Shown here: one piece after another, positions 17,288 to 23,081 of the stretch
Layout: each line of letters begins with the position of its first letter
How positions within the stretch are numbered: the stretch's first letter is position 1
Assembly: GCA_902527245.1 (NCBI GenBank)
Contig: CABZOI010000005.1
Span: 1-64,000 of the forward strand
Origin: an uncultured SAR92 cluster bacterium
Lineage (GTDB): Bacteria; Pseudomonadota; Gammaproteobacteria; Pseudomonadales; Porticoccaceae
Reading direction: 5' to 3'
Length of the DNA stretch: 64,000 bases
Translations under genes and position numbers: made by a program
The notes under the pieces: model-generated
Databases searched by the model: none
What the model saw: the letters and a program-made list of their open reading frames with translations, nothing else
Told to the model about the DNA's origin: nothing

Positions 17288-17710
17288 ATGGCTAACTTTT
17301 TTGCATTTTTGAGCGAACAGTGGATATTAACTGCCTCATTTCTTACTTTTACCTTTCTATTTTTTTTCACAGAACGAAAAAAAAGCGGAAAATCCATTAA
17401 TAATTCAATGCTTGTCTCAATGATGAACAAAAAAGAAGCTATTTTAATTGATGTTAGAGAAACAGCGAGTTACTCAGCAGGACATATCTTTGGCGCAATA
17501 AATATACCCCATAATAAAATGTCGACTCGAGTCAGCGAACTTGAGAAATATAGAAGTAAAATAATTGTCCTCGTTGATCAGATGGGTCAACATGCTGGAG
17601 CACTAGGGAAATTACTTACTAAAGACGGATATAAGGTAAGACGCTTGAGTGGAGGTATGACTGAATGGACATCAAACAGCATGCCCACAGTAACTGGGAA
17701 AAAAGATTAA
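17288..17710 (+). CDS. Membrane-anchored rhodanese-like protein, YibN type, cysteine-less
   Basis: A 140-residue protein with one N-terminal membrane helix (about 13-29) and a cytoplasmic rhodanese fold (DVRETASYSAGHIFGAINIP, then GGMTEW near the end). The loop that normally holds the catalytic Cys reads VLVDQMGQHA, and the whole protein has no cysteine, so sulfur transfer is excluded. E. coli YibN, also beside secB, similarly has an Asp at the normal Cys position. secB follows 32 bp downstream; grxC, which usually lies between, is absent. Confidence 0.85.
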   Translation: MANFFAFLSEQWILTASFLTFTFLFFFTERKKSGKSINNSMLVSMMNKKEAILIDVRETASYSAGHIFGAINIPHNKMSTRVSELEKYRSKIIVLVDQMGQHAGALGKLLTKDGYKVRRLSGGMTEWTSNSMPTVTGKKD

Positions 17711-17742: not shown

Positions 17743-18252
17743 ATGGCTGATGAAACTACAAAGCCCGCTGAAGCGGCATCAAGTGAAGACTCGGGTCCAG
17801 TTTTCGCTATACAACGCATTTATTTAAAAGATCTATCATTTGAAACGCCGATGGGTCCATCAGTGTTTCAGAAACAGTGGCAACCAAAAGTTAACCAAGA
17901 TCTCAATACCAAAAATACTAAACTTGAAGATGATTTGTATGAAGTCGCATTGAGACTTACACTCACTGTTACTGACGGAGAGGATACCATCTATCTTTTG
18001 GAAGTTAAGCAAGCGGGTATTTTTGCAATCAAAGGACTCGAAGCCAAGCAACTCACGCACATTATCAACACAACCTGCCCAAATATATTGTTCCCTTATG
18101 CAAGGGAAGTCGTTGACAGCGTGCTGTCTAAAGGGTCATTCCCTGCTTTGATGCTGCCACCAATAAATTTCGATGCGCTTTTTGCATCGGCACTAAAACA
18201 GGCTGAAGAAGAGAGTAAGGCTAGTAAGGACGAGACGGAAACAAAGCATTAA
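17743..18252 (+). CDS. secB: Protein-export chaperone SecB
   Basis: A cytoplasmic homotetrameric chaperone that keeps secretory precursors unfolded and hands them to SecA. The 169-residue protein carries the family core: FAIQRIYLKDLSFETP, QAGIF and LFPYAREVVDSVLSKGSFPALMLPPINFDALF split across the C-terminal half. An acidic N-terminus and a Lys/Glu-rich tail flank the core. It lies downstream of the rhodanese gene and ends 13 bp from the convergent ntrC. Confidence 0.96.
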   Translation: MADETTKPAEAASSEDSGPVFAIQRIYLKDLSFETPMGPSVFQKQWQPKVNQDLNTKNTKLEDDLYEVALRLTLTVTDGEDTIYLLEVKQAGIFAIKGLEAKQLTHIINTTCPNILFPYAREVVDSVLSKGSFPALMLPPINFDALFASALKQAEEESKASKDETETKH

Positions 18253-18265
18253 CCAACACGGCACA

Positions 18266-19678
18266 TCAAGAGTCTAGCTCATACTCTTGAAGTTTCCTCG
18301 TCAACGTATTTCTTCCCCATCCCAAGAGTATGGAGGCGTCTCTTTTTCGCCCATTTGTGTGAGACAAAGCTAGTTCTATCATGGTTTTTTCAAAATCTGG
18401 GACTGCTTTACTCAAGATATTCTTGTTCCCCTCTCTCAACTCTTTTTCAGCCCATGTTTTGAGTCCAGATTTCCAATTCCCAAAGTTTTGTTCAACTAAC
18501 TCGGCATTGTCAGGCCTTATTTCTGGAGGAAGATCGGATAAAAGAACCTCTCGTCCCGCAGCCATGACAGTGAGCCATCGACACATATTCTCTAGTTCCC
18601 TCACGTTACCTGGCCATTGAAGCGTTGAAAAAAACAACTCCACATCCCTAGACAAAAATTTTGGCTCCATATTTAACTCACTCGCCGCAAGAGAGAAGAA
18701 GTGTTTGGCTAATTGAGGAATATCCTCTTTTCTTTCTGATAATTTTGGAACGTGTACTCTTATGACATTTATCCTGTGAAAAAGATCTTCTCTGAAGATA
18801 TTTTCGCTTACTAATTTCTCTAAATTTTGATGTGTTGCCGCTATTATCCTTACGTCTACTTGGATTGGCGTCCGCCCACCAACTCGATAAAACTCACCAT
18901 CAGCTAGGACTCTTAATAACCTAGTTTGCGCTTCAGAGGGCATATCTCCGATTTCATCAAGAAATAAGGTACCGCCGTTTGCTTGCTCAAAGCGACCCTC
19001 TCGTCTTTGAGTCGCTCCCGTAAAAGCTCCCTTTTCATGACCAAACAGCTCTGACTCGATAAGATCCCTTGGTATAGCAGCGACATTAAGTGCAATGAAT
19101 TTTGCTTGTTTCCTTGGACTGTGTTTGTGCAAGGCATGAGCAACCAACTCTTTTCCTGTACCGGAATCTCCATTTATTAATACGGTTATATTTGAGTTAC
19201 TCAGTCTGCCTATCGCTCTAAAGACCTCCTGCATTGCTGGCGCTTCACCAATAATTTCCGGTGTGTTATCAGGTCCAGTTTTATCGTCTATATCACTTCT
19301 ATTCTCTAAAGCTAACGTCATAGCTCTCTGAGTAACATCAACTAACTCCGCCAAATCAAAGGGCTTGGGTAAATACTCAAATGCTCCTCCTTGATAAGCT
19401 GAAACAGCACTATCCAAATCAGAATGTGCAGTGGTGATGATTACCGGAATATCAGGATTTTTACCATGAATTTTTGAAAGCAAAGCAAGACCGTCTATTC
19501 CTGGCATACGAATATCAGAAATGATTACATCGGGTGTTGAAATCTCAAGAGAACCTAGAAGCTGATCACCAGTCTCAAACGTTCTCACTTGCATCTCTCC
19601 CTTGATGAGCGCTTTCTCCATTACCCATCGAAGAGAACGATCATCTTCTGCTACCCATATTACTGAATCACGACTCAT
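18266..19678 (-). CDS. ntrC: Nitrogen regulation response regulator NtrC (sigma-54 activator)
   Basis: Activates sigma-54 promoters under nitrogen limitation. The 470-residue protein has a receiver domain with phospho-acceptor Asp55 (ISDIRMPG), an AAA+ domain with Walker A GDSGTGKE (170-177) and the sigma-54 contact loop GAFTGA (217-222). A C-terminal Fis-type helix-turn-helix ([20 protein letters not shown]) completes it. It follows ntrB with a 1-bp gap. Confidence 0.97.
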
Positions 19679-19679
19679 A

Positions 19680-20774
19680 CTATTCTCCTAAGGGTAAGTA
19701 AATAGAGAAAATAGTATCTCCTGGCTCAGAAGAACATTCTATTGTCCCTTTATGTCTTGTCACTGCGGTTTGAGCAATTGTTAGCCCCAAACCAGTACCT
19801 CCGCTGCGCTCACTTACAAGAGGGAAAAAAATCTGCTCAGTCATGTCCGGCGTTATGCCAGGACCATTGTCAATAACATCTACCCTACATACAAACCGAT
19901 AACGGTTATCTGAAATTGTGTAGTTTCTTTGCACTCTGGTTCTTACAGTAATTTTCGGTTGTTGAATGTCAGCTTCATGAAGAGCTTGCAATGCATTTCT
20001 AGACACATTCAAAACTGCCTGAATCAACTGTGATTTATCACCGTTCAATTCTGGAATACTAGGGTCATAATCTCTCGTAAACTGGAAGTTACCATGAGTT
20101 TCCGCCTCTAAAAGACTAGTCACATGCTCTGTTACTTCATGAATATTTAACTTTTCAAATTTTAGTGTGTGGTGAGGCTCCAGAAGCCTGTCCACGAGGT
20201 CTTTTAACCTATCCGTTTCGGTTGTAATGATTTTTGTTAATTCTCTAGACTCCTCATCCATACCATGCTGAACAATTTCTTGATCTAATAATTGTGCCGC
20301 ACCCCTGATTCCCCCAAGAGGATTTTTGATTTCATGAGCCAGGCCTCTAACTAAACTTTTTGAGGTATCATGAGCAGACAAAAGGGCATGCTCTCTGTTG
20401 ATCCTCACAAAATGATCAATAGGATGCATTTCTATAAGAAGCCTTTTGGTTTCACCAACATCAATTGGAGTAAACGAACAATCAATCTTGGAGCTTTTGC
20501 CAGTGATCTTCGAGTTAATTTTTTCGTGCCTTCTCGTGTGAGGAGTTCCTGAATCAACTAACTCTCCCAAGGTCTTTTTAAAGCCAATTTGATCTTCTAG
20601 TAGATCGAATATGGTCAGGGTACAGAGCTTTGAGCGAGTCATCTGAAATAGAGACTCTGCAGCCGAATTAGCATATAAGATCGTCAAATCTAAATCAGAT
20701 AAAAAAACTGCACCATAAAGGTTATCCAGAAGCGCTTCATGTAAATTGTCGGTTTTGACTAACATGGTTCTCAA
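19680..20774 (-). CDS. ntrB: Nitrogen regulation sensor histidine kinase NtrB
   Basis: Soluble kinase/phosphatase partner of NtrC, normally controlled by PII. The 364-residue protein has an N-terminal PAS domain (about 10-120), the phospho-acceptor His147 in GLAHEIKNPLGG, and the ATPase boxes DNGPGI and GGTGLGL. It is separated from the glutamine synthetase by 163 bp that contain NtrC-like sites, so it may have its own promoter in addition to read-through. Confidence 0.96.
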   Translation of the reverse strand: MRTMLVKTDNLHEALLDNLYGAVFLSDLDLTILYANSAAESLFQMTRSKLCTLTIFDLLEDQIGFKKTLGELVDSGTPHTRRHEKINSKITGKSSKIDCSFTPIDVGETKRLLIEMHPIDHFVRINREHALLSAHDTSKSLVRGLAHEIKNPLGGIRGAAQLLDQEIVQHGMDEESRELTKIITTETDRLKDLVDRLLEPHHTLKFEKLNIHEVTEHVTSLLEAETHGNFQFTRDYDPSIPELNGDKSQLIQAVLNVSRNALQALHEADIQQPKITVRTRVQRNYTISDNRYRFVCRVDVIDNGPGITPDMTEQIFFPLVSERSGGTGLGLTIAQTAVTRHKGTIECSSEPGDTIFSIYLPLGE

Positions 20775-20937: not shown

Positions 20938-21945
20938 TTACAGTGCTTCTTTTGTAGTCTTAATTATTGCAGCAGCTACCTTATAGGGGTCAGCATTAGA
21001 AGCAGTTCTCCTATCTTCCAATCTTCCCTTCCATCCGTTTTCCACTGTTCCTACAGGAATTCGAATAGAGGCTCCCCTGTCCGACACACCATAGCTAAAT
21101 TGATCGTAAGCTTGAGTCTCATGCTCACCGGTCAATCGTTGTTCATTGTCAGCGCCATAAACACTCATATGCCTGTCTATGTGTTTACCAAAATTATCAC
21201 AAATACTGTTAAACACGGATTCATCACCACAAGTTCTCATGACACCATTCGAGAAGTTTGCATGCATGCCTGAACCATTCCAATCTAATTTACCAAATGG
21301 CTTGGGATGATAATCGATTGAAAAGCCATATTTTTCACCAGTTCGCTCCAATATGTACCGTGCAACCCAAGTCTCATCACCCGCCGCTTTTGCACCTTTG
21401 GCAAACACTTGGAATTCCCATTGCCCAGCTGCAACTTCAGCATTGATTCCTTCCACATTGATACCTGCTTCAAGACATAGATCTAAATGCTCCTCCACAC
21501 ACCCTCTGCCATGAGCATTTGAGGCGCCAACAGAGCAATAGTAGGGTCCTTGTGGCCCTGGGTATCCATTTGGAGGAAACCCTGGAGGTAATTTTGTATC
21601 GACGTCAATCAAAAAATATTCTTGCTCAAATCCGAACCAAAAATCGTTGTCATCATCATCGATAGTCGATCTTCCATTACTGGCATGAGGAGTTCCGTCT
21701 GCATTTAATACTTCCGTCATAACCAAAAATGCATTGACCCTATCTGGGTCGGGGAAAATTGCTACTGGCTTCAGTAAACAATCCGATGAATTTCCAGGCG
21801 CTTGCTCTGTCGAGCTGCCGTCAAACGACCACATAGGACATTCTTCTAATGTTCCGCCAAAATCTGTCTCTATTCTTGTTTTGCTTCTTAAGCTTTGAGT
21901 TGGCTCATATCCATCCAACCAAATGTATTCTAGTTTTGTTTTCAT
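20938..21945 (-). CDS. glnII: Glutamine synthetase type II (GSII, eukaryote-like)
   Basis: Makes glutamine from glutamate, ammonia and ATP. The 335-residue length and motifs (WLDGYEPTQSLRSKTR, WSFDGSST, GYPGPQGPYYC, GQWEFQV, DWNGSGMHANFSN, EDRRTASNADPY) are those of GSII, not of the ~470-residue GSI that usually sits next to ntrBC in gammaproteobacteria. GSII lacks the GSI adenylylation tyrosine loop, so GlnE control would not apply. The ATG at 21945 is preferred to a TTG two codons upstream. A sigma-54 promoter lies 136 bp upstream, as known for rhizobial glnII. The symbol follows rhizobial usage. Confidence 0.93.
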   Translation of the reverse strand: MKTKLEYIWLDGYEPTQSLRSKTRIETDFGGTLEECPMWSFDGSSTEQAPGNSSDCLLKPVAIFPDPDRVNAFLVMTEVLNADGTPHASNGRSTIDDDDNDFWFGFEQEYFLIDVDTKLPPGFPPNGYPGPQGPYYCSVGASNAHGRGCVEEHLDLCLEAGINVEGINAEVAAGQWEFQVFAKGAKAAGDETWVARYILERTGEKYGFSIDYHPKPFGKLDWNGSGMHANFSNGVMRTCGDESVFNSICDNFGKHIDRHMSVYGADNEQRLTGEHETQAYDQFSYGVSDRGASIRIPVGTVENGWKGRLEDRRTASNADPYKVAAAIIKTTKEAL

Positions 21946-22226: not shown

Positions 22227-22246
22227 AAATAGGAGTTTCTACTGAA

Positions 22247-22534
22247 ATGGATTACCTAAATCTTGAGAATTTAAAGCTATTGAGCTCGCACCTAAAAATT
22301 ATTGACTTACGTCATCCTAATGAAGCATCTAGTTTAGGAATTAATCAAACAAATATTGAAGTACTCTCAATACCCTATTATTTACTGAAAACTAACCTAT
22401 CAAATTTAAATAAAGAGACTCATTATGCTCTGTATTGCAAAGACGGAATTATGAGTAGACTTCAAGCAGGAATTTTAAAAGATAAAGGGTTCACCAAAAT
22501 ATCTGTTATACGAGATCTCTCTGAGCAAACCTAA
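22247..22534 (+). CDS. Stand-alone ThiI-type rhodanese domain
   Basis: A 95-residue protein that corresponds to only the C-terminal rhodanese domain of ThiI: IDLRHPNEA, SIPYYLLKTNLSNL, ALYCKDGIMSRLQAGILKDKGF. The persulfide-forming Cys is present (in YCKDGIMS, equivalent to the YCDRGVMS loop of E. coli ThiI). The THUMP and PP-loop parts of ThiI are missing, and no remnant is visible upstream. TAGGAG 11 bp before the ATG suggests it is a real gene. In Pseudomonas, thiI lies next to glnA, as here. Thiazole sulfur transfer is the likely retained role. It overlaps tag by 29 bp, tail to tail. Confidence 0.8.
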   Translation: MDYLNLENLKLLSSHLKIIDLRHPNEASSLGINQTNIEVLSIPYYLLKTNLSNLNKETHYALYCKDGIMSRLQAGILKDKGFTKISVIRDLSEQT

Positions 22535-23081
22535 AGCAACCAGGCTCATGATCATTTACTAATCCCATCGCTTGCATATACGCATAGCAAATTGTAGGAC
22601 CAAAAAACTTAAACCCTTTTCCCCTCATATCATTACTAACTTCTTTTGACAAATCCGTGTATGGAGGAACATGATTACCTTTGTTCCAATCTCTTAGCAC
22701 GGGAGTAAAATCCACAAATCCCCAAATGTAGTTACTAAAACTCCCATATGTTTTTACAACCTTTTTAAATGCGATTGCATTGTTAATTGCACTTTTGATT
22801 TTCAACTCATTACGAACAATATTTGGATTTGCCAATAACCTTTTGACATCATGAGACTCATACTTTGCAATCTTCTCATAATCAAAGTTATCGAATGCTT
22901 TTCTATACGCTTCTCGCTTGTTAAGTATTGTAATCCAAGAGAGTCCGGCTTGAGCTCCCTCCAACACAATAAACTCATAAAGTTTCTTATCTTCAAAACA
23001 AGGCACACCCCACTCATTATCATGATAAGCCACATAAAGAGCAGAGCTTAAATCACACCAACCGCATCGTATTTTTTTCAT
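22506..23081 (-). CDS. tag: 3-methyladenine DNA glycosylase I
   Basis: Removes 3-methyladenine from alkylated DNA. The 191-residue protein has the family start RCGWC, YHDNEWGVP, the catalytic-pocket Glu (LEGAQAGLSW) and the C-terminal zinc ligands DHEPGC, which pair with the N-terminal Cys/His. The length matches E. coli Tag (187). The 3' end overlaps the convergent rhodanese gene. Confidence 0.95.
   Translation of the reverse strand: MKKIRCGWCDLSSALYVAYHDNEWGVPCFEDKKLYEFIVLEGAQAGLSWITILNKREAYRKAFDNFDYEKIAKYESHDVKRLLANPNIVRNELKIKSAINNAIAFKKVVKTYGSFSNYIWGFVDFTPVLRDWNKGNHVPPYTDLSKEVSNDMRGKGFKFFGPTICYAYMQAMGLVNDHEPGCFRFAQRDLV

Follow-up and report, generated by a model that had tools for sequence, protein, structure and literature searches.

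The window, by which we mean the whole stretch of 64,000 nucleotides analysed here, stems from an uncultured SAR92 cluster bacterium. On its forward strand, at 22247-22534, it codes for a free-standing ThiI-type rhodanese (sulfurtransferase) domain of 95 amino acids with a single cysteine. The ORF was confirmed in the window; it starts with ATG and is preceded by a putative ribosome-binding site (AGGAG, 22231-22235, forward strand, 11 nt before the start codon). The protein scores 81.3 bits (E 4.4e-23) with the NCBIfam model TIGR04271 (ThiI_C_thiazole; curated cut-off 70 bits), covering profile positions 17-100 of 101. This family assignment is far above chance. The Pfam Rhodanese model is matched with 24.6 bits (cut-off 22.2 bits), and there is no other Pfam match. 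Homologs from relatives reach 76.4 bits (L061) and 104.9 bits (L100) with TIGR04271. A wide search of 369 genomes from across the class with the same model gave 12 matches over the cut-off, the domain being free-standing only in the genome to which the window belongs (the source genome); weaker matches resemble generic rhodaneses. With the GlpE and PspE models, the 95-residue protein gave no match at E up to 1, and the TusA fold (PF01206) was not found in it.

An AlphaFold model of the protein has a mean pLDDT of 81.3. When it was used as a Foldseek query, solved rhodaneses were matched with a TM-score of about 0.7, and the closest of these include the rhodanese domains of CoA-persulfide reductases. 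The persulfide loop (C64 to S70, 22436-22456, forward strand) reads CKDGIMS and thus shows the CxxG[IV]MS signature of the ThiI C-terminal domain, with its persulfide cysteine. C64, the only cysteine in the protein, corresponds to Cys456 of Escherichia coli ThiI, the residue that is charged with persulfide by IscS (PMC2854127, PMC5372745). Across 18 homologs from the SAR92 clade, C64, G67, I68, M69, S70 and the motif R22-H23-P24-x-E26 are invariant. An earlier, sequence-only reading of this DNA had described the protein as the C-terminal domain of ThiI and nothing more, with the Cys loop included. The TIGR04271 score and the intact C64 bear this out.

In Pseudomonas, Cellvibrionaceae and Porticoccaceae, the loci share the gene order secB-ntrC-ntrB-glnA-thiI-typA-tag, within the reach of each locus. 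In SAR92 loci, the thiI slot holds the rhodanese part only. The gene was thus correctly placed by the sequence-only reading at the ancestral thiI position, but the adjacent glutamine synthetase (20938-21945, reverse strand) is not the GlnA-I found there in relatives. It is of the GlnII type, as indicated by a match to NF041605 (379.7 bits, under the cut-off of 500 for this model), and by synteny it lies in the GlnA-I slot. In the genus of the source genome, GlnII occupies the exact place between ntrB and the thiI slot that GlnA-I holds in other SAR92 bacteria and Pseudomonas. The enzyme is 97-98% identical between genus members (neighbors 53-89%). This looks like a replacement in place. Further genes in the conserved order of SAR92 and Pseudomonas loci code for homologs of NtrB (19680-20774, reverse strand), NtrC (18266-19678, reverse strand) and SecB (17743-18252, forward strand). 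A second rhodanese, at 17288-17710, precedes secB; it has 140 residues with an N-terminal hydrophobic stretch and is YibN-like. On the other side, DNA-3-methyladenine glycosylase I (Tag; 22506-23081, reverse strand; PF03352, 250.9 bits) is encoded convergently. The 3' ends of tag and of the rhodanese gene overlap by 29 bp (22506-22534), and the same two genes likewise overlap convergently in a relative (L003).

The domain is homologous to that in ThiI of Gammaproteobacteria (TIGR04271), has the same loop cysteine and lies in the same slot, flanked by glutamine synthetase and, in relatives, by typA. In contrast to these proteins, it lacks the NFLD, THUMP and PP-loop domains and cannot make 4-thiouridine (s4U), and there is no ThiG in the genome. 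Absences in the source genome, a draft assembly (1.9 Mb, 94.3% complete), were judged by family-profile searches. TIGR00342, which represents the THUMP/PP-loop core and detected it in 12 of 14 control genomes, gave no match in this assembly, so that the separate core gene considered by the sequence-only reading was not found. Likewise, tblastn with ten full ThiI proteins revealed no core remnant, neither in the window nor in the surroundings of 16 further free-standing genes. On these results and those for the relatives given below, a split ThiI with its core elsewhere in the genome was rejected. The core search was genome-wide for 58 relatives and confined to the locus for most of the 13 genomes reached through their loci. 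Among the 58, the two genera that carry the free domain (g1, that of the source genome, and g11) have no core over the TIGR00342 cut-off, the matches in g11 being short PP-loop stretches inside other proteins. Judging from gene absence, s4U formation is likely to have been lost in the SAR92 clade. ThiI is lost completely in the lineages g6 and g10 and in one further genome (G005).

The free domain occurs in 20 distinct genomes of the SAR92 clade (Porticoccaceae). These are the source genome, two relatives from the same genus and 17 further genomes of the clade (G068 and G012 are identical and were counted once). HTCC2207, MOLA455 and BACL16 fall in or next to genus g11. In the TypA tree, where the rows G004, G024 and G043 remain long, the 20 genomes form one group (support 100/99, found in 100% of the bootstrap trees). 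ThiI therefore underwent a single reduction, placed at the root of the SAR92 clade. Horizontal acquisition is disfavored, as the gene is in the ancestral slot and its carriers fall together in the TypA tree; the tree of the domain, with 90 columns, is too short to decide on this point.

Comparisons among SAR92 species without thiG gave dN/dS values of 0.07-0.20 for the domain (p from 5e-6 to 4e-14). When the copy in the window was compared with those of its genus relatives, the value was about 0.28 (p 3e-5), with dS near saturation. Therefore, the free domain is a working gene under purifying selection. This agrees with the sequence-only reading, which had considered it a functional gene and not debris: dN/dS is well below 1, and the disrupted frames in close relatives that would have spoken for decay were not seen. 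The frame is intact in the two relatives from the genus and in the 17 further genomes, and the active-site cysteine is kept in the SAR92-clade genomes that carry the domain. Within the genus, the rhodanese protein is 53% identical, compared to 71-98% for six neighbors. There, the gene is constrained yet evolves faster than these six.

ThiG (PF05690) was not found in the source genome, in two relatives from its genus or in four g11 genomes. The source genome has one weak match (24 bits, profile positions 137-212) within a frame of 495 residues, which looks like IMP dehydrogenase. Among the 13 other distinct SAR92 genomes with the rhodanese alone, ThiG was detected in only 2 (G064 and G069). It is thus missing from 18 of the 20, the source genome included. 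In these 18 genomes, full-length Thi4 was not found either, the matches being restricted to 40-60 residues of the Rossmann fold. The sole ThiS-family protein found in the source genome is MoaD. Its single TPP riboswitch (C6:104998-105093) is followed by genes for a TonB-dependent receptor, a protein weakly matching Thiamine_BP, a transporter of the PnuC family and a kinase that weakly matches thiamine kinase, and from its gene content this operon reads as one for thiamine uptake. At L282:1241-5093, a TPP riboswitch heads a compact operon for thiamine uptake (TonB-dependent receptor, thiamine-binding-like protein, PnuC-family transporter, kinase), and HTCC2207 (L283) has this operon as well. 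In G064 and G069, the ThiF-family protein has a C-terminal rhodanese of its own, and because of this the ThiI domain need not be the sulfur donor even in these two genomes. ThiF-rhodanese fusions are seen in the thiazole clusters of SAR92 genomes at L182:5514-6626 and L183:8375-9487. In several other family members, the ThiF-family frames beside thiG are 370-420 residues long, a length that suggests a fusion to rhodanese in these genomes also. In the ThiG tree, the two SAR92 copies group with genus g12; they may represent either an old retention or a re-acquisition.

We propose the following course of events. In the SAR92 common ancestor, the THUMP/PP-loop part of ThiI would have been deleted in place, and the leftover C-terminal rhodanese domain would have gained its own start. 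C64 would be loaded with sulfur, for which IscS, the donor to full ThiI, is the most likely source. The acceptor would be neither tRNA U8, because the s4U-forming domains are gone, nor ThiS, because there is no thiazole synthase. We consider it quite probable that the protein is a persulfide carrier to such another acceptor. As acceptor in molybdenum-cofactor synthesis, the adenylated C-terminus of MoaD is the leading candidate, because the source genome has moaD and a moeB lacking a rhodanese domain but no TusA, which was not found in its genus or in genus g11 either. The moa cluster of the source genome contains homologs of moaC, moaD, moaE, moeB, moeA and moaA, with fdhD nearby; moaE, moeA and moaA are presumed from their sequences. 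For the MoaD thiocarboxylate, E. coli takes the sulfur from TusA and humans take it from the rhodanese domain of MOCS3 (PMC5372717). The ThiI rhodanese is missing from all four family genomes that have no ThiS/MoaD protein (29/0 versus 4/4, Fisher p 0.001, uncorrected for kinship), but this association goes back to two or three independent losses. It also counts against the proposed explanation that the rhodanese gene shares no operon with iscS or with moa genes, that the protein evolves fast in the genus of the source genome, that the window codes for the YibN-like rhodanese and that other rhodaneses may exist. Moreover, MoaD and MoeB occur in three g10 genomes that have no TusA and no ThiI rhodanese, and MoaD sulfuration is therefore possible without the domain. 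Thus, MoaD may be named as the acceptor only tentatively. It is rather doubtful that the ThiI rhodanese became an independent carrier which replaced TusA in molybdenum-cofactor synthesis after the s4U and thiazole jobs had been lost.

According to the sequence-only reading, formation of tRNA 4-thiouridine may have been lost and the thiamine function kept. The domain would then pass sulfur to ThiS-AMP, as in Salmonella. The loss is likely, the core being absent, but the thiazole role is contradicted. The rhodanese domain of Salmonella ThiI alone is sufficient for thiazole synthesis (Martinez-Gomez 2011, as cited in PMC10654098), Wigglesworthia and Serratia symbiotica combine a free rhodanese frame with thiG, and thiG is present in G064 and G069. 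However, a search for thiazole genes left the source genome and 17 other rhodanese-only SAR92 genomes without ThiG and Thi4, MoaD is the sole ThiS-family protein of the source genome, whose one TPP riboswitch precedes the uptake operon, and ThiF brings its own rhodanese in the two exceptions. Because of this inventory, a thiazole role is not tenable for the SAR92 lineage, as far as gene content tells, and we regard it as very improbable. A domain that outlived thiazole synthesis might instead be a decaying relic that drifts to loss, fastest in the genus of the source genome. Its low identity and higher dN/dS within this genus would fit, as would the complete loss of ThiI in the related lineages g6 and g10. 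Such decay is nevertheless improbable, given an intact frame and active-site cysteine in all 20 genomes and a dN/dS of 0.07-0.20 between species without thiG.

The domain might also stand in for TusA in tRNA 2-thiouridine synthesis, with MnmA receiving the sulfur. In E. coli, the mnm5s2U34 relay begins with TusA as the acceptor of sulfur from IscS (PMC2854127), and it is this protein that the genus of the source genome and g11 lack. Yet g6 and g10 have neither TusA nor the ThiI domain and still show PP-loop matches of MnmA-like length, while genus g4 is devoid of TusA and has a full ThiI in three of its four genomes. This makes a role in 2-thiouridine synthesis decidedly unlikely. Of 37 family genomes, 24 lack TusA, carriers of a full ThiI among them, and sulfur delivery to MnmA and MoaD in Porticoccaceae therefore probably differs from that in E. 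coli. A general sulfane-sulfur rhodanese such as GlpE or PspE, active in thiosulfate/polysulfide metabolism or persulfide detoxification and having no dedicated biosynthetic acceptor, would be consistent with the single-domain fold and with the CoA-persulfide reductase domains among the nearest solved structures. It is unlikely, as the sequence is still ThiI_C-specific (TIGR04271 over cut-off) and fails to match the GlpE and PspE models.

Reduction of ThiI to its rhodanese domain with retention of thiazole synthesis has been described for insect symbionts (Wigglesworthia, Arsenophonus of Ornithoica, Candidatus Pantoea; PMC10654098). The SAR92 protein shares this reduction. The symbionts are, however, separate and host-bound lineages that kept the thiazole pathway, whereas the SAR92 organisms with a reduced ThiI are free-living and thiG is absent here. 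Rhodanese-only ThiI is thus known from symbionts, while the version without a thiazole synthase is new; no report of a SAR92 case was found in the literature on SAR92 thiamine and truncated thiI. The carrier proposed here would resemble E. coli TusA, which serves both the molybdenum cofactor and s2U, in being a small IscS-charged protein that delivers to MoaD or MnmA, but the sequences are unrelated and the source genome has no TusA. With the C-terminal domain of MOCS3/MoeZ, it has in common that both are rhodaneses, and MOCS3/MoeZ gives sulfur to a MoaD-type protein; that domain is fused to an E1-like adenylyltransferase, whereas ours is free-standing and MoeB has no rhodanese.

ThiI has two known jobs, s4U formation and thiazole synthesis. 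Because selection keeps the sulfur-carrying domain in many species that lack the downstream enzymes of either job, there is probably a third, as yet undescribed use of it. A leftover thiI is an unsafe sign of thiamine synthesis; in these SAR92 bacteria, thiamine seems to be imported. With cultured SAR92 strains, HTCC2207 for instance, the role of the domain can be tested. One further frame of this type was seen in MAG NP51, which has thiG: at L107:4600-5094, a ThiI-type rhodanese frame of 165 residues extends from stop to stop. This MAG is close kin of L064, which has a full ThiI, and the frame may stem from a broken thiI or from faulty assembly.
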